Below, piece by piece: positions 1 through 57,033 of a stretch of 64,000 nt of DNA. The stretch is taken from positions 1,798,001-1,862,000 of the forward strand of contig BROI01000002.1 in assembly GCA_027923505.1 (NCBI GenBank), given 5' to 3'. Below the pieces are notes generated by a model. That model made no database searches. It was not told where the DNA came from and saw only the letters and a program-made list of their open reading frames with translations. Source of the stretch: Mayamaea pseudoterrestris. Lineage: Eukaryota > Bacillariophyta > Bacillariophyceae > Sellaphorales > Sellaphoraceae. The stretch's first letter is position 1, and each line of letters opens with the position of its first letter. Both the position numbers and the translations under genes were made by a program.

Positions 1-3000
1 TTACATTCATGTTTGTTGACATGATGGGCTAGGCATTTTGATACATGCACCTTATTATCCACACCATGGATGCTATAGGTGATACTTGGCAGATCCAACA
101 ACTTGTTGGATCTGCGAGCAGTGCACCTCAAGAGGCAAGCCAGACTGCCGGAATGACCCACAGAGCCTAGAATACAACAAACATGAAGTTTAATAGTGAA
201 TGGGACTGCTAGTTTTGTTGTTTTGGGTGTGGAACCCATCACCGTGCCAGGAGTTTCCGCACATTCAACAAATGGTTGAATGTGCCAGCAGTGCACCCTT
301 TTTGGCTACAGGGATCATCAGCATTGCCTGCTGAGCCCTCCAATCCCTTTCCATTCATGTTTGTTGACATGATGGGCTAGGCATTTTGACACATGCACCT
401 CATTATCCACACCATGGATGCTATTGGTGATACTTGGCAGATCCAGCAACTTGTTGGATCTGCGAGCAGTGCACCTCAAGAGGCAAGCCAGACTGCCGGA
501 ATGGCCCACAGAGCCTAGAATACAACTAACATGAAGTTTAATAGTGAATGGGACTGATTGTCTTGTTGTTTTGGGTGTGGAACCCATCACCATGCCAGGA
601 AACTCTGCACATTCAACCTATGGTTGAATGTGCCAGCAGTGCACCCTTTTTGGCTACAGGGATCATCAGCATTGCCTGCTGAGCCCTCCAATCCATTTCC
701 ACTCATGTTTGTTGACATGATGGGCTAGGCATTTTGACACATGCACCTCATTATCCACACCATGGATGCTATTGGTGATACTTGGCAGATCCAGCAACTT
801 GTTGGATCTGCGAGCAGTGCACCTCAAGAGGCAAGCCAGACTGCCGGAATGGCCCACAGAGCCTAGAATACAACTAACATGAAGTTTAATAGTGAATGGG
901 ACTGCTAGTCTTGTCGTTTTGGGTGTGGAACCCATCACCATGCCAGGAAACTCCGCACATTCAACAAATGGTTGAATGTGCCAGCAGTGCACCCTTTTTG
1001 GCTACAGGGATCATCAGCATTGCCTGCTGAGCCCTCCAATCCCTTTCCATTCATGTATGTTGACATGATGAGCTAGGCATTTTGACACATGCACCTCATT
1101 ATCCACACCATGGATGCTATGGGTGATACTTGGCAGATCCAGCAACTTGTTGGATCTGCGAGCAGTGCACCTCAAGAGGCAAGCCAGACGGCTGGAATGG
1201 CCCACATAGCCTAGAATACAACTAACATGAAGTTTAATAGTGAATAGGACTTATAGTCTTGTCATTTTGGGTGTGGAACACATCACCATGCCAGGAAACT
1301 CTGCACATTCAACAAATGGTTGAATGTGCCAGCAGTGCACCCTTTTTGGCTACAGGGATCATCAGCATTGCCTGCTGAGCCCTCCAATCCCTTTCCATTC
1401 ATGTTTGTTGACATGATGGGCTAGGCATTTTGACACATGCACCTCATTATCCATCACCATGGATGCTATTGGTGATACTTGGCAGATCCAGCAACTTGTT
1501 GGATCTGCGAGCAGTGCACCTCAAGAGGCAAGCCAGACTGCCGGAATGGCCCACATAGCCTAGAATACAACTAACATGAAGTTTAATAGTGAATGGGACT
1601 GATAGTCTTGTCGTTTTGGGTGTGGAACCCATCACCATGCCAGGAAACTCCGCACATTCAACAAATGGTTGAATGTGCCAGCAGTGCACCCTTTTTGGCT
1701 ACAGGGATCATCAGCATTGCCTGCTGAGCCCTCCAATCCCTTTCCATTCATGTTTGTTGACATGATGGGCTAGGCATTTTGACACATGCACCTCATTATC
1801 CACACCATGGATGCTATTGGTAATACTTGGCAGATCCAGCAACATGTTGGGTCTGCGAGCAGCGCACCTCAAAAGGCAAGCCAGAATGCCGGAATGGCAC
1901 ACAGACCCTAGAATACAACTATCATGAAGTTTAATAGTGAATGGGACCAATAGTCTTGTCGTTTTGGGTGTGGAACCCATCACCATGCCAGGAAACTCCG
2001 CACATTCAACAAATGGTTGAATGTGCCAGCAGTGCACCCTTTTTGGCTACAGGGATCATCAGCATTGCCTGCTGAGCCCTCCAATCCCTTTCCATTCATG
2101 TTTGTTGACATGATGGGCTAGGCATCTTGACACATGCACCTTATTATCCATTACCATGGATGCTATTGGTGATACTTGGCAGATCCAGCAACTTGTTGGA
2201 TCTGCGAGCAGTGCACCTCAAGAGGCAAGCCGGACTGCCGGAATGGCCCACCGACCCTAGAATCCAACTAATAAGATTTTTAAGAGTGAATGGGACTGAT
2301 AGTCTTGTCGTTTTGGGTGTGGAACCCATCACCATGCCAGGAGACTCCGCACATTCAACAAATGGTTGAATGTGCCAGCAGTGCACCCTTTTTGGCCACA
2401 GGGATCATCAGCATTGCCTGCTGAGCCCTCCAATCCCTTTCCATACCTGTTTGTTGACATGATGGGCTAGGCATTTTGACACATGCACCTCATTATCCAC
2501 ACCATGGATGGTATTGGTGATACTTGGCAGATCCAGCAACTTGTTGGATCTGCAAGCAGTGCACCTCAAGAGGCAAGCCAGACTGCCGGAATGGCCCACA
2601 TAGCCTAGAACACACCTAACATGAAGTTAAATAGTGAATGAGACCAATAGTCTTGTTGTTTTGGGTGTGGAACCCAGCATCATGCCAGGAGACTCCGCAC
2701 ATTCAACAAATGGTTTAATGTGCCAGCAGTGCACCCTTTTTGGCTGCAGGGATCATCAGCATTGCCTGCACAGCCCTCCAATTTTTTTTCATTCATGTTT
2801 GTTGACATGATGGGCTAGGCATTTTGACACATGCATTTTCATTATCCACACCATGGATGGTATTGGTGATACTTGGCAGATCCAGCAACTTGTTGGATCT
2901 GCAAGCAGTGCACCTCAAGAGGCAAGCCAGACGGCTGGAATGGCCCACCGACCCTAGAATATAACAATCATGGATCTTAACATTGACTGTGAATGGGACT

Positions 3001-3025
3001 GATAGTTTTGTCATTGATGGTGTGA
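1..3025. repeat. Satellite A: tandem array of a 348-bp unit, nine copies
   Basis: The landmark TGTTGACATGATG recurs at 14, 362, 710, 1059, 1406, 1755, 2103, 2452 and 2800, giving a period of 347 to 349 bp. Copies are highly alike; the last one (from about 2760) is the most diverged and fades out near 3025, about 240 bp before the first gene. Each unit holds two strong inverted repeats, for example 90-114 and 259-285. The minus strand of several units has a recurrent open frame of about 108 codons; because 348 is a multiple of three this is expected from repetition, and it resembles no known family. The array begins before the window. Confidence 0.97.
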
Positions 3026-3262
3026 AAACTTTTGACTCAAACTGAAGAGCAGCTGAATTTTGGTCATCCTCGAGTTTGTCGTACTGGTTACTTTAAGCCA
3101 CTGCGACGGCTTGGATCTCGAGGCGCGCCGTTCGTCTCGTTTTGATCCACCATGAGATGCTGTTCCAGAGCTTGCAGCAATCGCAAAATAAGCTGCTCGG
3201 GGCTATCAAACACTCCATGCGCGAGTAAGACTCTCCCAGCTCATTCTTAAGACTAAGCCAAC

Positions 3263-5092
3263 ATGAATCGATTCGGCCGAAACGCTCGTGAGGATCCTCG
3301 ACGAGCCATGACGCAGCGCATGCAAGCTCACTCCGTCCAGCTGCGCAAGCGCCGCAAGGAGGAGCGTCTGACGGCGAGACGGCTACTTGGAACAACTGTC
3401 ATGAATGATGATATAGCTGCAGCTGCAAACGATGGGTCAAATGCCATGATATTGGCTCCATCTCTGATCATTCGATACTTTTTGGAACATCCCTTTGACT
3501 TGCAGCATTTTGCGAATCTACAAGAGCTTGTCGCAAGTCAACAGGGAAGGGAATATCTACTGCAAATGATTGCAGACAATGCTGATATTTGCAAAAATGT
3601 TGTTTCGCAGCTCTCAGCAAGTCTACAAAAGCCGGCATACCAACGAATCGTATTGACGATTCTTCAAGAAATTGCCATGATGACGAAGAACTTTGCGTCT
3701 TTAACCGAAGACTACTACGGACGGCAACCACTTTCTTGGCAAATTCTCATGACACGAGATTCACTGCTGCTGCCATCACTACTCTCGCTTCCAACTGATT
3801 CTGGAGATCCTCAAACAAGTCTCCAAACAGCCGCACTAACAACGCTTGGCATGTTGGTGCAGCAGCAATCATCTTCGAGTGCCGCTATTGCGTTTTGTTT
3901 GAACCATTGGGTAGACTACTTGCTGCAAGCATTGCCGAGCTCGAGTTTTTGCTGCGCCGCAGTGCTGCGGCAGGATGCAACGACCTACGGCATGCAGTTT
4001 TTTTCAGAGCCGTTTCAAAACGCAAACTATTTGATGGCGTTGTTTCAATGCCAAGGGAATGATTCTGATGACTCTGAACAAAATTCCCGAACCATTGTCC
4101 ATGCGGCATGGATGCTGCAGGGATTATCGTTTCGAGAGGATGCCGTCGTTGACTTTATTTGTCGCGATGCTGCCCTTTTTGACACGGTCCTCCAGGCCTT
4201 TAATCATGCGACTATCAATGACGACCAACAACTGTCAGTTCCACTGTTACAAGCCTTTTGCAATCTGGCCACGGCCTGCCATGGGAAGTACGTGAGCTTG
4301 TTCTTATCGCGACCTGATTTTGTCGAGTCACTGTCGCGACTACTTTACGAAGGAAGAATAATGGATTCAGTTCCCATGGCGGGTAGCCTGCTCGTGGATT
4401 ACGGACTGGAGCAGCATCCATCGACAACGATTGCAGGTCCAGCCCTGTTGCCGGGGCTGGTGCAAGCTCTGCTGCATGTCAAGTATGATTGGAGAGCGCA
4501 GGCAGTGGCGGCCATTGCGACGGCATTTGATGTATCGACGCTGCAGCCACCCGACCATGTTCCTCTTACATTGCCGCAGTCACCGACACCAGCCTACAAC
4601 CTGAAAATCATTTATGCGGCCGCCGAGCAAGTACTATGGCGAACTGCCTCCTTGCGAGTTCCAATACTCGAGTCAATCGCAACCTTGATACGACCCAACG
4701 ACATGAACGCAACTTTTGGTGCGCTTGCCGTGCTGGACTTGCTGTTTCAGTGCCTCCTCGAAAGCCGCGTATTGTTTGAAAGCGTTCAAGGCCCTCGCCG
4801 GCTGGATGAGCTTTGCAATCATTACGGCAGTGGTGAGTCGCTTGGATCTGATCTAGCCGAAGCGCAAGCCATTGCGGCACATTTGCTCGACCTCTATTTT
4901 AACGACTCGGAGGATGAGGATGACAATGAGGACAATTATGATGGCTCAACGAAGCAGACGGCGATGAACAGTCAATTTACCTTTGATTTGACACCGGTTA
5001 ATAACTTTTCGATGCAACAGTCATTCAACGAACCTACGGCGTCAGCTCAAGGGCGTGGTCGCGGTCGCACCTTGCCTGCCTGGATGCAATAA
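3263..5092 (+). CDS. Importin-alpha-like ARM-repeat protein
   Basis: Single exon, 609 residues. A basic N-terminal stretch (residues 8-45, with QLRKRRKEERLTARR) resembles the importin-beta-binding domain of importin alpha. It is followed by helical ARM-type repeats over about residues 60-530; HAAWMLQGLS and LLQAFCNLATA echo the importin-alpha repeat core. The C-terminus has an acidic patch (DSEDEDDNEDNYDG) and a short RGRGRGR stretch. Importin alpha links nuclear-localisation signals to importin beta, but the regular Trp/Asn ladder is not clear here, so this is a divergent relative or another ARM adaptor. The start ATG at 3263 (context CCAACATGAA) is the first in frame and begins the basic domain. 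It lies between satellite A and a convergent neighbour. Confidence 0.65.
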   Translation: MNRFGRNAREDPRRAMTQRMQAHSVQLRKRRKEERLTARRLLGTTVMNDDIAAAANDGSNAMILAPSLIIRYFLEHPFDLQHFANLQELVASQQGREYLLQMIADNADICKNVVSQLSASLQKPAYQRIVLTILQEIAMMTKNFASLTEDYYGRQPLSWQILMTRDSLLLPSLLSLPTDSGDPQTSLQTAALTTLGMLVQQQSSSSAAIAFCLNHWVDYLLQALPSSSFCCAAVLRQDATTYGMQFFSEPFQNANYLMALFQCQGNDSDDSEQNSRTIVHAAWMLQGLSFREDAVVDFICRDAALFDTVLQAFNHATINDDQQLSVPLLQAFCNLATACHGKYVSLFLSRPDFVESLSRLLYEGRIMDSVPMAGSLLVDYGLEQHPSTTIAGPALLPGLVQALLHVKYDWRAQAVAAIATAFDVSTLQPPDHVPLTLPQSPTPAYNLKIIYAAAEQVLWRTASLRVPILESIATLIRPNDMNATFGALAVLDLLFQCLLESRVLFESVQGPRRLDELCNHYGSGESLGSDLAEAQAIAAHLLDLYFNDSEDEDDNEDNYDGSTKQTAMNSQFTFDLTPVNNFSMQQSFNEPTASAQGRGRGRTLPAWMQ

Positions 5093-19676: not shown

Positions 19677-22600
19677 CCGGTCCTCCTCATGGCAACAGGA
19701 GCAACCATAATTCTTGCCATTTACGCTATAGTATACCGCTTGTTTAATGTTTATACCTACAACAGTGTTGTAAAGAGACCATTTATAGTCCAGTAAGTGG
19801 TCCCGCCACGTTCCTTTCGGCCCCGGCCGCTTCGTCGAAACAACACTCCCCAGCGCTCGATTTGGTGAGCGACTGCCATGAGCAACGGCGGAGGCCGTTT
19901 CGATGGACAGCAGGTCTCGATCAACCTCGGCACGTATAACATTCAATCCGGACGTGCTGGCAGGCTGGAGAGCGCATTGCGCGTGATGCAACAGATGAAT
20001 TTGGACATTGGCATCCTTACGGAGGCCAAGCTCACTGGTGGTATACACACGCGGTTCTCGTCAGGGTACCATGTGTACGCCACTGAGGCACGTTCACCTC
20101 ATCAAGGGGGCGTCGCTTTGGTCTTTCGAGATTCGGATTATTGGCAAGTCGAATCGGTTCTTAAACACGGTCCTAATGTTATCAGCTGTGAACTGGTAAC
20201 AGGTCGACGACGAATTCCCCTCGTCGGTGTTTATCTTCCGCCCGACGATGTCACAACTATTGAATATCTTCAAGCTGCATTGGACCGGTTTCCCAATGGA
20301 AACCCAATTGTGCTGGGCGACTTAAATGTTGCCCTTGCGTCCCCGAGGGACGCCCACGGTGCCGACATCGCGGGTACAGTCAGTGCCAATGGACTCGAGG
20401 ATATGCTGCCGCATTTCAAGTCGCGCCCGTCTTTTCGACATGGCAAGACTTGGAGCATGATACGCAATGGGTGTCGTATAGACTCCCGTTGCGATTATAT
20501 TTTGGGCCATGACCGTCGCATGTTTATGAACGTGCAGATCAAGGATCCAAGATGCTTCAGCTTGGACCATTTCATGGTTTGGGCTCAGATGCTGTCGGCT
20601 CCGCAACGGAGCCATCGACACTACCTACAAGGTAGAAAGCAATTTCCACTGCGGCCGCAAAGGCCGCAGCCGAAGGCGGATGTCTGGTTTGGGGAGCTGG
20701 CGAAGGAAAAGATGGTCATCACTCGGGAGACTCGGGTGCGGACATCATGGATTTCTGATGCTACCTGGCAGTTAATTGACACGCGAGCCTCGCTCCGACG
20801 TCAACCAAACTGCGATCAGACAGAAGCTAGGAGACTGGCACGGCAAATACGCGCTGGCATTAAAGCCGACCGTAAAGCCCGGGTGAGGTCAGCTGGTGCT
20901 GACATTGAAGCTCGGCTTGCCGCCAAGGATCCTAAGGGGGCATGGGAGCGAATCAAGGCATGGTATAACCATGCTGGAGACCGCCCCAGCAAACCCTCTC
21001 GTCTCGATGTGCAGACCGTCTCGCGCGAATTTGCTGATTTATATCGGCAGGTGCCTCCTCCAGGTGATCCAATTCCTGTGATGATTGCACCATTTCGCGT
21101 TCGCGACCATCTGCCTTCCGAGAAGGAAATTGCGTCGGCCGTCACATGCCTTCGAGCTGGCAAATCGCCAGGTCCGTCCGGGCTGCGTGCAGAGGACCTC
21201 AAGGAGTGGCTTGCAGCATCACAAAGGGAAGAATTCCCAAGCCGGCGTAACTGGGACAAGGTAATTGGCCTAGTTCAACACGCATTTATGACGGGTGAAA
21301 TCCCTGAAGAAATGACGTGGTCCGTTTTGGTTCTCATCCCAAAGGGCAGCGGAGGCCATCGGGGGATTGGACTATTGGACGTTATTTGGAAAGTGATCTC
21401 AAGCATTATTAATGCTCGGCTCAACTCGGCAATTAGCTTCCATGACTCTCTCCACGGGTTTCGACCTAAACGTGGCACAACTACCGCTATCCTAGAAGCA
21501 AAGCTCCTCCAGCAACTTGCTGCAATTGAGCAGTCGCCGCTTTACGAGATCTTCATTGACCTCCAAAAAGCATACGACACGCTGGATCGCAACAGAACAT
21601 TGGAGATACTGAAAGGATATGGAGTTGGACCGCAGGTGTGCCAGTTGCTCCGTAACTTTTGGGACCGGCAGCAGGTGGTGGCGAGGCTAGGTGGATTTCA
21701 TGGGGAGCCGTTCGCGGCTCGCCGTGGCGTCACACAAGGGGATATTGTCTCGCCTACCATTTTCAATATTGTGGTCGATGCAGTTGTCCGGTATTGGCTT
21801 TCGCTGATTTCGGACAATAATGACGATGTTTTGGAGGGTCTTGTGCAGGGCTTTTGCAGACGATGGCCTCCTAGCATCACGCTCGCATGAATTTCTACAG
21901 GCGGCTTTTAGCTGCTTGGTGGAATTATTTGAGCACATCGGACTTAAAACGAACACAAAAAAAAACCAAAGTGATGACTTGCTACCCTGGCTACATTAGT
22001 GGTCAAATTTCCGATCTTGCGTACAAGAGACGAATGACAGGGGAGGGAGATTCTTTTCGCGATCGGCTACGCCGACGCGTGAGCTGCCCGGAGTGCAGCA
22101 AGGATCTCTCTGCAGGTTCACTCCAACAGCATATGCGGACGCAGCATGGAATGGAAGGTGTCTTCTTTGAGGATCCACCCGCCCATGGCCCTCCTGCTGA
22201 ATACCGCATTAGCTTCCCACGGTACGCCACAAAAGTCCACTGCCCGGTGGACGGATGTGCTGGGACAGCTACGACGCGATCCAATCTCCGCTGCCATTTT
22301 CAGTACAAACATGTCACTGACAGGATTGTTATCCTGGAGGAAGGCTCCACTGCGCTACCACGCTGTGAACTCTGCGACATGTTTGTGCCATATTCCGCTC
22401 TGAACACCGGCCACCAAACCACAGCATGCTGTCGGGAGGGTGCTGTCCGGAAACAGCAGCGGCACGCAGCTGAGGATGCCCGCCGCGCACGTGAAGTTGT
22501 CTTCACCCTGCTGTAGTCGGTTCCGTAATTTCATTGTGTACTTGGGCCGCCCATTGAACAGTTTGCCTAGTGGGATTGAAGTCAGCGCTGCACAACCCAA

Positions 22601-52082: not shown

Positions 52083-55000
52083 ATGTCATTTGGATGGACC
52101 TGCTCCAACTGCACCTACAAGCACCATGCTCCCTGCGAGCGATGCGCCATGTGCAATGAGATGCGTGTTACCAAGAAACAAATGGCTGACTTTGTCCTGG
52201 GAGTTCCAATTCCAAAGACTGTCAATGCTGCTGCGCCTGCAAGTCCAGCGCCGTTGCAAGGAGCACCAGCAGCTATCAAGCAAGTCACTCTTGACGCTGT
52301 TTTTGGAGGTGCAAGCGGAACAATGAGTCAAATCAATAGTTCAACAGCAAAAGTAGTGACATCGAGTACAGCTAGTGCACCTGTTGCAGCAGCAGCAGCA
52401 ACAGCGGTGTCAAAGCCAAAGGCGGCGACAATAACGCACAATCCATACGCCAAGAAACGACCTGCGTCGGCCATGAAGAATCACAGCAATCAGCAATCTA
52501 CTACTAGTAGCAGCGCGACTGTAGCTTCTAGTATTTCGATAATGGCGGGCGCTCGAACAGACCAGGCGGACGCAAGTGCACGCGGCGCGACAGCAGACGC
52601 AGGAATAGTGGCATCGAGCAATGGCCAAAATATACACGTCAATAGAACGGCTCCACATTTGGACAGTACCGATAAGAACTTGATGCAGCCGCCTCCATCA
52701 TCGTGGGCGACTGCGTCTGTTTCAGCCGCTGCTAGTCATGCAGTTACCACTCGAAACGAGGCACCGACTGTTAACAACGCCATACATTCGGCGCAATCTG
52801 CCATTACCACCGCCGCTGTTAACGACAATCCACCACCTGTGAATACGTTAAACACGTCAAATGGTCCTCAGCCATCTACATTAGCCAAGTATCATCGACC
52901 TGGGGTCTCGCTGCAAGGAAAGTCAGCGACATCAAAGACCAAGCGCCCAAATGAAGCGGAAGACAAAAATAAGATCAGTCGCCAGTATGGCATGGTTCGA
53001 CCACCGTATTCGCCAGGGCCAGTTCCAATTGACCCAAGCACGGCTCATGATTGGATTTATCCGCAAAATCCCGATTACCCGACTCGTCTATACCAACTCG
53101 AAATGTCCTCCACTGCCATTTTCCACAATACACTCGTCTCGCTACCAACCGGGCTCGGCAAGACGCTGATTGCTGCCGTTGTCATGTACAACTACCATCG
53201 CTGGTTTCCAACTGGCAAGGTGGTATTCATGGCGCCAACCTTGCCACTCGTTCAGCAACAAATCAAAGCTTGCTACCAAATCATGGGCATCCCAACCTAC
53301 GTTACGGCCATGCTGACTGGCAAGGTGTCGCAGGAGAAGCGATTGGCTATTTGGCAGGAGCGCAGCGTCTTTTTCTGTACGCCGCAAACAGTGCAAAAGG
53401 ATTTGGAGCATGGAACGTGTCCGGCGCAGGATGTCGTTTGCGTCGTGTTGGATGAGGCGCACCGCGCTGCTGGCAACTACGCTTACGTGAATGTTGTTCA
53501 ATACTTGGAACATTCTGGAGCAAAATTCCGCGTACTGGGTCTGAGTGCAACGCCTGGTGCTAACATCAAGGCGATTCAAAAGGTGATTGACGTGCTTGGT
53601 ATCAACCGCATTGAGGCGCGCAATGAGTCGGACCCGTCGGTCTCGCAGTACACGCACACTCGCACATCAGAGATTATCGTTGTACCACAAGTAGCTGCTT
53701 CAAAAGGGATCGAAGTGGCACTTAACGCAATAATAGACCCCCTTATTAGTCGTTTGCGGAACGCTGGTTGCTTTCAGCGATTTGGAACCAACAATTCCAT
53801 TTCATGTTATAATATCATGAAGGAGAGTGAAGCCTACAAGGAGCGAACGCAAGATTCCGCCATGTCGGGTTTCTTTTTTGCAGCACAAAAGTTTGTGCAA
53901 ATACGGGACTTTTTACACAAGCAAGGAGTCGGCATGGTACGCACCAAGATTAACGAATTGCGCATAGGACGTCCGAATGGCATGGTTGCCAAGATTGTCA
54001 AGGGGCCCGAATTTGTCAAACTTTGGGACGAAATATCGCGAGCTGCCTGCGATCCGAATGCGCATGAAACGGATGCCCGCGATCGGTTACACAACAATCC
54101 AAAACTTGCCAAGCTGTGCGAAATCTTGCAGGAACACTTTGAACGAGCGAGAGCGTGTGGCAAGTCGTCGAGAGCAATTGTCTTTTCGCAGTTTCGCGAT
54201 TCAGTTTCGGAGATTGTCGCCGTGCTCGACCCTCACAAACCCACAATCCGATCGAGGCACTTTATTGGGCAAGGCAAGGGAGCAAAGGTAAAGAAAGATG
54301 ATTCAAACCCAGGACAGCAGCTGCAAGGAATGAACCAAACTGAGCAACACAACGTAATCCGCGAATTCCGCAATGACGTCTACAACGTCCTTGTGGTAAG
54401 TCATAATTGCCGAAGATTGACACATATCTGTGCCGTTGAACTTGTGTATTAATTCTGCTTAAATTTTGTTGCAACAGTGTACTTGCATTGGTGAAGAAGG
54501 GCTTGATATTGGCGAGGTTGACTTGATTGTAAATTTTGACACACTCAGCAGTCCGATACGCAGTCTACAGCGCATTGGTCGCACCGGACGTAAGCGAGAA
54601 GGGCGCGTTGTTTGTCTTGTATCGGAAGGAGCGGAGGAAAAGACTATGAATTCGTCCAAGCAGAAGGAACGTACCTTGCAGCATGCGCTCAAGAATCCAA
54701 AAGCATTTACAACCTTACCTACAGTACCAATGTTTGAGGTTGAACCTGAGCAGTCAAGAGTTGCTATGAACTTCTCGCAAAATTTTCGTGAATCGCAAGT
54801 AGAAGGGATTGGAGGAGCCAACCGCAAAGACAAAACGATAGTCGCGAGCTTTACACGCTGGAAACTGACCGAAGATGAGAATGCGCAGCGGCTGAACATA
54901 CTACGACAATACGCTAGGGTACAGCTATCAGTGGAAGGAACAGGCATGACGAGTTTACGGCGACGATTATTGTCAGGCAGGAAGCTTAAAACAGTCACTG

Positions 55001-57033
55001 AAAGCATGAAGGAAAATTATTCTGGACGTACGGTGGCGTTTCTTTGCAAGCTGGAGGCTTCGAATGATGTAGCGAATGAAGCAGTATCTGGTGTAACTCG
55101 CAGTCGAGGCTTCCGAGGCAGCAACGACGAAGCGCTCGACACTCTTTTCCCGCTAGTAGTTGACAATTCTCGGGGCGAATGGGGAGTTGAGATGAAGCGC
55201 ATCGTCCCAAATGAACAGGTGGTCGATTCGTCCACTGTAGATGCACCTCTGGAAGTAATACCGACGGCTAATTATGATGCAGATGCAACACTAACAGTAG
55301 GCAACTCGATAGCACATGCGAAGCCGACTCTGCCCGAAACAAGTGTCTGTCGACCTTCACCATCCAGAAACGTCGCGGCGATTGGTATGGGACTGCCGAG
55401 GGAGCAGCATGCTGCGTCACTAGCATCACAGGCACAGTTTGAAGACTTTTGTCTTCCTCCAGATTGTGAATCATCCAGTGATGACGATGAGCATTTGGAT
55501 GATGATTCAGTGTCGAACGTGCCTGGGGAAAGTGACTGCGCCGAGGGTGGTGGGTCTAGCAATGATGTCCTAAACGTTCACATAAATACTAATCTACCCA
55601 ACACTCCACCTGCGAAAGCCGTGCTTGATGAATTTCGCCTACCGACGCCAGCGTCTAGTTCGGACGAAAGCGATGATGAGTCAGTCGCATTTGTGGAAAT
55701 GAAAGCCATTGACGACGTATCAAAGGACCTTCCGATGGGCAGCGACAGAACGATACTGAAAGCATCAACGCATCCTTCGGAGCAATCTGATAAGTCGTCT
55801 AATGCAAAGCTTCAAGAAAGTCAAACTGACTCCAGCCGAGTGTACTCCAGAAGTAATGAAGCGAAAAACAATTCACACTTGGCTGTCAATAATGATAGTC
55901 CAGAAAGTGAAGCATCCATCCGTCACATGGTGAAGAAGTCCAAGAAAAACTTTCTTGTCATTCAAGACTCACCGGAGGTACAGATTGTGAATCCTTACGT
56001 CACACGCAAGCGAAAGTCTTTGGGGTCGCTCTCTTGCGACTTGACCAACACCCAAGACGAACCAATGGACACACAATGCAGCAGCAGTCATCCTGGAGAT
56101 GCAGATGACATCATTTGCGCCGTTTGTAGGTTAGGGCATAGTCCGGATGAGAATCCTATCATACTGTGCGATGGCGAGCGTTCGCCCGGGCGTTGTTGTG
56201 ACTTGGCGGTGCATGTGTCCTGCTATTCGGTTCGCACACCTCTGATGCCGGACGAGGACTGGTTTTGTGACCCATGTCTTTCGCGAAATAAAGGACTGAA
56301 AGGCTCATTCGAATGCGTCGAGTGCCATGTTGGAGAACATGGAGGAGCCTTGAAGCAGGGCGTTGGGAGTTTGTGGCGACATGTGAAGTGTCATGGCAGC
56401 CGCGATAAACCGCAACGACTAAAAAAGATTAGAGGGAAGAAGAGTAAAAAGCCACCAACACATCGTAAATCAATTCAAGAGGCAAATCGTTGTCCGCTGT
56501 TGGACCTGTCCGCCAACGCCGAAACACATGAAAGCGATTCGACCCGAAAACGGCGACGCCAGCATCATCTGCGGCGTTTTGTCCAGGAGGAAGCTGACTG
56601 TGACTCGGACGAGGATATTGATGGAGACGGTGACGAAGAGGATGCTATTCGGGCGATTGAAGAGGAGGAAGCTCTGGCAGCTGGCGGCTTTATCAACGAC
56701 ACGTCTCAGCTGGATTACACGCAAGATATATTAGACCAAGTGGATCCGGATGCTGCGAACGACGATACTATACACCGGGAACTAGATTACGAGCGAGCGC
56801 GCCATGAAGAGTTTGCAACACCATGTTTGGGTCGCCGCTTCCTGAAAGATAAACAGCAGCTTTCTTCCAATACGCCGGCGTCCATGCCAAGTTCCGAAAA
56901 GTGCTTGGGCAAAATGCATTTCATACGGAGTGTTTTGGAGCACCATCGCCAAGGTGGCGATACGGAAGATATCGAACAAGCTTACAATGATTTGGAGACT
57001 CATGGTACCCAGGCTGCGTTTTCGCAATGGTAA
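52083..57033 (+). CDS. FANCM/Mph1-type DEAH helicase with N-terminal NZF and C-terminal PHD fingers
   Basis: Exons 52083-54395 and 54478-57033 join across an 82-bp GT-AG intron inside the helicase (join NVLV|CTCIGEEGLDIG); the product is 1622 residues. Domains: a RanBP2/NZF zinc finger at 4-28 (WTCSNC...CERCAMC); a disordered Ala/Ser/Thr-rich linker; SF2 helicase lobe 1 with motif I PTGLGKT (about 354-361), DEAH at 457-460 and GLSATPG; an inserted helical region typical of the Mph1/FANCM/Hef group; lobe 2 ending IGRTGRKREGRVVCL. A long acidic linker follows, then a PHD-type cluster at about 1315-1412 (ICAVCRLGH, ILCDG, DWFCDPCL, FECVECHVG, HVKCHG). No ERCC4-type nuclease is visible. FANCM remodels stalled forks and D-loops; the added fingers suggest ubiquitin and histone binding (inference). 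Confidence 0.92.

Follow-up and report, generated by a model that had tools for sequence, protein, structure and literature searches.

A FANCM-type helicase with NZF-type and PHD-type fingers in the genome of the diatom Mayamaea pseudoterrestris

A 64,000-nucleotide stretch of the genome of the diatom Mayamaea pseudoterrestris (assembly GCA_027923505.1, contig BROI01000002.1, positions 1,798,001 to 1,862,000 of the forward strand; hereafter the window, in whose coordinates positions are given unless another contig is named) contains a gene at 52083-57033 that encodes a FANCM-type helicase with an NZF-type zinc finger ahead of its motor and a PHD-type finger behind it. The initial annotation had predicted a helicase that combines both kinds of finger in one protein, and the combination is confirmed in the 1622-residue gene model, of which a second copy is intact. 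Judged from this one genome and from the FANCM literature examined, a FANCM with two fingers would be an unusual and distinct architecture: titles and abstract openings of work on FANCM or Mph1 in diatoms, stramenopiles and oomycetes, or on such fingers, a partial coverage of that literature, describe no FANCM with an NZF or a PHD. Published work is cited below by its PMC identifier.

Gene model and FANCM-type motor

The gene has a single GT..AG intron, and splicing yields a protein of 1622 residues from a frame with no internal stops. The exons, and the motor encoded across them, are placed as follows.

52083..54395, + strand: exon 1, residues 1-771 (open frame and splice junction; second copy alike)
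54396..54477, + strand: intron of 82 bp, GTAAGT...CAG (83 bp in the second copy), whose excision restores FANCM motif V
54478..57033, + strand: exon 2, residues 772-1622 plus stop
53055..54699, + strand: FANCM-type superfamily 2 (SF2) motor, residues 325-845, interrupted by the intron (phmmer against PDB; Pfam DEAD, ResIII and Helicase_C)

Across the exon junction the restored motif V reads NVLV followed by CTCIGEEGLDIGEVD, and in both copies an in-frame TAA stands ten codons upstream of the ATG. The initial assignment of these two exons to one gene with one intron is upheld by the absence of internal stops and by the same structure in the second copy.

The helicase motifs PTGLGKT, DEAH, SATPG, IGEEGLDIGEVD and QRIGRTGR are found at residues 355, 457, 488, 775 and 802, respectively. 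Among the best 60 of the 157 PDB sequences that the motor matched at E<=0.001, human FANCM (9el5) ranks first, with 386 bits, E 2.6e-114 and ~520 residues aligned, followed at 229 bits by 1wp9, which we take to be archaeal Hef. Further matches reach 94 bits for AncD1D2, presumably an ancestral Dicer, and at most 91 bits for chains of LGP2 and RIG-I. By PDB bit scores the motor is nearer to FANCM and Hef than to RIG-I and Dicer, and the initial view of a FANCM-type helicase core is supported at the sequence level. The best Pfam matches of the motor are ResIII, DEAD and Helicase_C, with SWI2_SNF2 far under its cut-off; the NCBIfam Hef model scores 364.6 bits, under its cut-off of 610, and comparison with PHROGs gave generic helicase matches only. 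A search for relatives of the exon-1 motor in viral and prokaryote contigs returned 1 and 31 stretches, respectively, that fit the pattern, none of which was confirmed. Pfam found no ERCC4 domain anywhere in the 1622-residue protein, in line with the initial annotation, which had contrasted it with the ERCC4 end of animal FANCM; we therefore file it as a FANCM-family motor without a nuclease-like end. The genome holds three ERCC4 places, all on other contigs, and a Hef-like nuclease was rejected as a reading of this gene for want of an ERCC4 domain.

The second copy of the gene lies on contig C17, with both exons intact and ~96% identity over the gene. By direct comparison, positions 40805-64000 of the window are collinear, with gaps, with C17:104520-127996, the main blocks being 86-96% identical, and the C17 copy represents either the alternative haplotype or a large duplication of recent origin. 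Within the gene, divergence between the copies is greater in exon 1 than in exon 2, a contrast that would fit a boundary of recombination or conversion inside the gene. The copies differ by 0 non-synonymous and 12 synonymous changes in the motor (residues 325-845), by 0 and 3 in the NZF, by 0 and 1 in the PHD and knuckle and by 0 and 0 in the basic stretch, leaving NZF, motor and PHD without any amino-acid difference; the corresponding counts are 14 and 9 in the N-terminal linker, 5 and 1 in the mid linker and 2 and 1 in the C-terminal tail. Motor and NZF thus appear to be under constraint, with small counts in the case of the NZF, and the linkers look loose.

Terminal fingers and PIP-like motif

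Two short elements precede the motor, a finger at the very N terminus and a motif resembling a PCNA-interacting peptide (PIP).

52095..52166, + strand: NZF/RanBP2-type finger, residues 5-28 (phmmer to PDB NZFs and shuffle tests; W5, C7, C10, T11, Y12, H14, C21, M23, C24)
52281..52304, + strand: PIP-like motif Q67-V-T-L-D-A-V-F74 (motif scan and shuffles; QGTLDAVF in the second copy)

The finger, W5-x-C7-x2-C10-x10-C21-x2-C24, has the exact NZF spacing. The pattern W-x-C-x2-C-x10-C-x2-C, picked post hoc, turned up once when the whole protein was shuffled 20000 times and not at all when its first 40 residues were shuffled as often. Compared with PDB by phmmer, these 40 residues matched 24 sequences at E<=10, the best being TAB3 at E=0.0028; the leading matches were TAB3, YAF2, HOIP, TRABID and TAB2 at E 0.003-0.05, with RYBP also among the best. 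Most of these NZFs bind ubiquitin, and those of RYBP and YAF2 bind ubiquitylated H2A. In the NZF of ZRANB3, the substitutions W625A, Y632A and N634A abolish binding to K63-polyubiquitylated PCNA and T631A lowers it, M643A impairs the affinity for ubiquitin oligomers while K63-polyubiquitin binding is retained, and I633A and E642A are without effect (PMC12841045). Four of the five critical ZRANB3 residues (W, T, Y, N and M) are conserved at the same spacing in the diatom finger, as W5, T11, Y12 and M23, with H14 in place of the N; the N-terminal NZF is a putative ubiquitin binder.

The PIP-like motif starts 43 residues past the last Cys of the NZF, ahead of the motor. A PIP-box lies near the N terminus of human FANCM, at residues 5-12 (PMC6743340), and is classed as non-canonical (PMC6116012); Q67-F74 may correspond to this box, shifted inward by the NZF ahead of it, and is likened to the box by position, not by letters. 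The motif scan found no strict PIP and no APIM pattern in the whole protein; a looser PIP pattern, picked post hoc, has an expected count of 0.051 in a shuffle of the whole protein and of 0.0022 in a shuffle of the N-terminal 330 residues. This putative PCNA contact is a new addition to the picture of the gene.

Behind the motor, the second exon encodes a long linker, a predicted zinc-binding cluster and an acidic tail. The cluster resembles the start of a PHD-zinc knuckle-PHD (PZP) module.

56116..56277, + strand: PHD finger, residues 1318-1371 (Pfam PF00628; PDB BRPF1, BRD1, AF10 and BAZ2A)
56314..56391, + strand: PZP-like zinc knuckle C1384, C1387, H1406, C1409 (aligned with BRPF1 and AF10 chains)
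56401..56466, + strand: basic tract, residues 1413-1434, at the site of the second PHD of a PZP (sequence and charge count; no PHD match)
55441..55485, + strand: short motif [DE]xFxLP..SSSD, first copy, residues 1093-1107 (sequence)
55627..55674, + strand: short motif [DE]xFxLP..SSSD, second copy, residues 1155-1170 (sequence)
56683..56721, + strand: GGFINDTSQLDYT in the acidic C-terminal tail, residues 1507-1519 (sequence; no informative family match)

The PHD pattern is formed by C1318, C1321, C1335, C1345 (C1344 also being possible), H1350, C1353, C1368 and C1371. PF00628 scored 29.0 bits against a cut-off of 24 on a 140-residue segment and 16.4 bits in the whole-protein scan, and the PDB alignments of PHD and knuckle run through C1384 and C1387 to C1409, at E 4.5e-8 for BRPF1 and E 1.3e-6 for AF10. 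On these matches we regard the identification of a C-terminal PHD as solid. The initial annotation had described the cluster as PHD or extended-PHD like; the PHD type holds for residues 1318-1409, but only the first knuckle of a PZP or extended PHD is present. As Pfam matched no second PHD in the 140-residue segment or in the tail, a full PZP or extended PHD, of which PHD1 and the first knuckle align, was rejected. Alanine occupies the position that holds a tryptophan in H3K4me3-binding PHDs. The PHDs of its nearest relatives, BRPF1 and BAZ2A, read unmodified H3K4, and that the diatom PHD would do likewise we infer by analogy only. In the acidic linker, [DE]xFxLP..SSSD occurs twice, and 0 of 20000 linker shuffles held even one (pattern picked post hoc); the repeat is a possible partner-binding motif. 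In the tail, GGFINDTSQLDYT might be a conserved FANCM motif.

Proposed function and alternatives

We tentatively propose, at somewhat short of an even chance, that the gene encodes a FANCM remodeler of forks and displacement loops (D-loops) that would be recruited in the manner of ZRANB3, through PCNA and ubiquitin, and held in place by a histone-tail reader. Acting probably together with the histone-fold proteins MHF1 and MHF2, an ATP-driven DNA translocase would remodel D-loops and stalled forks, and readers added at both ends of the protein would bring the FANCM motor to its substrate. Ubiquitin would be the ligand of the NZF and PCNA that of the PIP-like motif, and the pair would favour ubiquitylated PCNA at stalled forks, as in ZRANB3; the PHD and zinc knuckle would bind the H3 tail and the basic tract DNA, and the motor would be held on nucleosomal DNA near the fork. 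This order of recruitment is one that we infer. The most likely role would be fork and D-loop remodeling with crossover control, the predicted readers directing the enzyme to ubiquitylated and nucleosomal sites. Family searches of the genome yielded a CENP-S/MHF1 candidate at 64.5 bits (E 6.8e-9 with PDB CENP-S), CENP-X/MHF2 candidates at 54.3 and 44.4 bits, an RMI1 candidate at 37 bits and HIRAN domains. Animals have ZRANB3 and FANCM as two distinct enzymes, with ZRANB3 reading ubiquitylated PCNA through its NZF. If the proposal is true, a FANCM motor equipped to read ubiquitin as well as histones would couple the remodeling of forks directly to their ubiquitylation and to the state of the chromatin. 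One protein might then recognise stalled replication forks from the chemical marks that they bear, provided that the readers work as proposed, and an exchange of recruitment modules between repair motors in algae would be suggested.

Several results weigh against this proposal. QVTLDAVF has V in place of the seventh-position aromatic and departs from the strict Q-x-x-[VILM]-x-x-[FY]-[FY], and the looser PIP pattern matched in ~5% of 2000 whole-protein shuffles. The MHF-binding region after the motor (PF16783) gave no Pfam match, with a model that may be too narrow; FANCL_C was found at three places in the genome, none over the cut-off, and FANCD2 had no genome match in a search whose control was also without a match, which makes the result uninformative. 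Single-sequence structure predictions were unusable for both fingers, with a mean predicted local distance difference test (pLDDT) of 61.9 for the NZF and 37.4 for the PHD, and the 1 synonymous difference between the copies in the PHD is too few to show selection. As for the NZF, the N634 that is essential in ZRANB3 corresponds to H14 here, and ubiquitin binding is chiefly doubted on that account. Pfam zf-RanBP (PF00641) did not report this finger in the protein scan, the segment scan or the whole-genome family search; on this point the initial assignment to the RanBP2/NZF class, borne out by the spacing and the PDB NZF matches, found no support. With a profile built from nine other NZFs of the genome and the HMMER bias correction on, the best 11 rows listed were all shuffles, with FANCM not among them. 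With the correction off, the same profile placed the FANCM NZF first of 1000 sequences, at 17.2 bits against 7.4 for the best of 999 shuffles, and a simple score matrix gave it 27.1, where the highest of 2000 shuffles reached 16.4. The nine other NZFs, scored in a leave-one-out scheme, range from 27.4 to 39.9, and the FANCM finger falls just short of that range. Taken together, the profile, score-matrix and Pfam results mark the FANCM finger as a divergent NZF.

A FANCM orthologue with readers for chromatin only, whose NZF would read a mono-ubiquitylated histone and whose PHD an H3 tail of one nucleosome, PCNA having no special part, would suit the YAF2 and RYBP matches of the NZF and the BRPF1/AF10 type of the PHD; we consider it unlikely in view of the PIP-like motif, which lies between NZF and motor, before the motor as in human FANCM (PMC6743340). 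Divergence of the finger lends itself to a further explanation, in which an NZF-like finger would bind not ubiquitin but nucleic acid or another protein, or would be a decayed remnant, and the PHD would be merely a structural or protein-protein module. H14, the Pfam miss and a matrix score just under those of the other genome NZFs speak for this, yet it appears improbable when the ubiquitin site retains W, T, Y and M, the NZF has 3 synonymous and 0 non-synonymous differences between the copies and the arginine/asparagine pattern of RNA-binding RanBP2 fingers is not seen. That two or three adjacent genes, or a frame error, have been read as one is hardly credible, for although the single-transcript model is drawn from genomic sequence, the two long open exons, the in-frame GT-AG junction that restores motif V and the identical structure of the second copy argue otherwise, and separate genes were rejected because the frame is intact in two copies.

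The zf-RanBP family search of the genome returned 16 places, 7 of them over the cut-off, the NZF of FANCM not included. Eight regions with nine of these places were taken up, seven being scanned with Pfam and a C21 gene with two NZFs being left out. A RecQ5-like helicase (C24:11000-19000, 2153-4603, + strand) starts with Met-Ser-NZF, followed by QQTLFGKK and then the motor, a layout like that of the FANCM N terminus. A protein at C12:497000-505000 (2293-4725, - strand) has an internal NZF and a C-terminal CtIP/SAE2 match. At C25:153500-163400 (1222-4157, - strand), adjoining frames hold an SNF2 domain, a bromodomain and a C-terminal NZF, with HIRAN matches just beyond; possibly these frames are one gene with the NZF on its last exon, the exon linkage being a prediction. 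The other carriers, by Pfam, are a WLM-domain protein, two RING proteins and a large protein with a weak PH match. The NZF of FANCM thus fits a habit of this genome, in which repair proteins, and not they alone, carry NZFs. It is a rather doubtful extension of the proposal that a FANCM with NZF, PIP and PHD-knuckle took over the fork finding of ZRANB3 within a lineage habit of NZF-tagged repair enzymes, here meaning FANCM, the RecQ5-like helicase, the CtIP/SAE2-like protein, the WLM protease and the SNF2-bromodomain gene.

Elsewhere in the window, positions 21000-21800 have an 801-bp copy on contig C12 at 100% identity and weaker copies on other contigs, marking a recent dispersed repeat. Across the genome, 53 matches to light-harvesting proteins indicate a photosynthetic eukaryote, in keeping with a diatom; one of them, compared with PDB, matched 2 LHCI chains at E<=1e-40.

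Comparison with known systems

A survey of meiotic genes lists FANCM in six diatoms (PMC4647503), and Fancm is upregulated in sexual Seminavis robusta and not differentially expressed in Skeletonema marinoi (PMC6678668); fancm mutants of Chlamydomonas are sensitive to cisplatin, whereas those of Arabidopsis are not (PMC9110296). Human FANCM shares with the Mayamaea protein the SF2 DEAH motor and a PIP-box region N-terminal to it, but ends in ERCC4 and HhH and carries MM1-MM3, where Pfam finds no ERCC4 in the diatom protein; conversely, the domains listed for the human protein include neither NZF nor PHD (PMC6743340). The PZP modules of BRPF1, AF10 and JADE have PHD1 and the first zinc knuckle in common with the C-terminal cluster, which carries a basic tract where their second PHD would stand.

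Archaeal Hef, to judge from 1wp9 as we identify it, shares the motor. The nuclease of Hef is of the XPF/ERCC4 type, whereas the algal protein has no ERCC4 match. Hef is described as combining helicase and endonuclease activity (PMC11061109). Within the same genome, the RecQ5-like helicase shares the order of an N-terminal NZF, a QxTL-type motif and a motor, but its motor is of the RecQ type, its NZF spacing is one residue longer and its QQTLFGKK is without the last PIP aromatics.

ZRANB3 carries a motor of the SNF2 family. It is a fork remodeler whose PIP and NZF recruit it to K63-ubiquitylated PCNA, and which also has an HNH nuclease and an APIM (PMC12841045). The algal protein differs from it in that its motor is of the FANCM type and the motif scan finds no APIM pattern, and shares with it four of the five residues that are critical in the ZRANB3 NZF.

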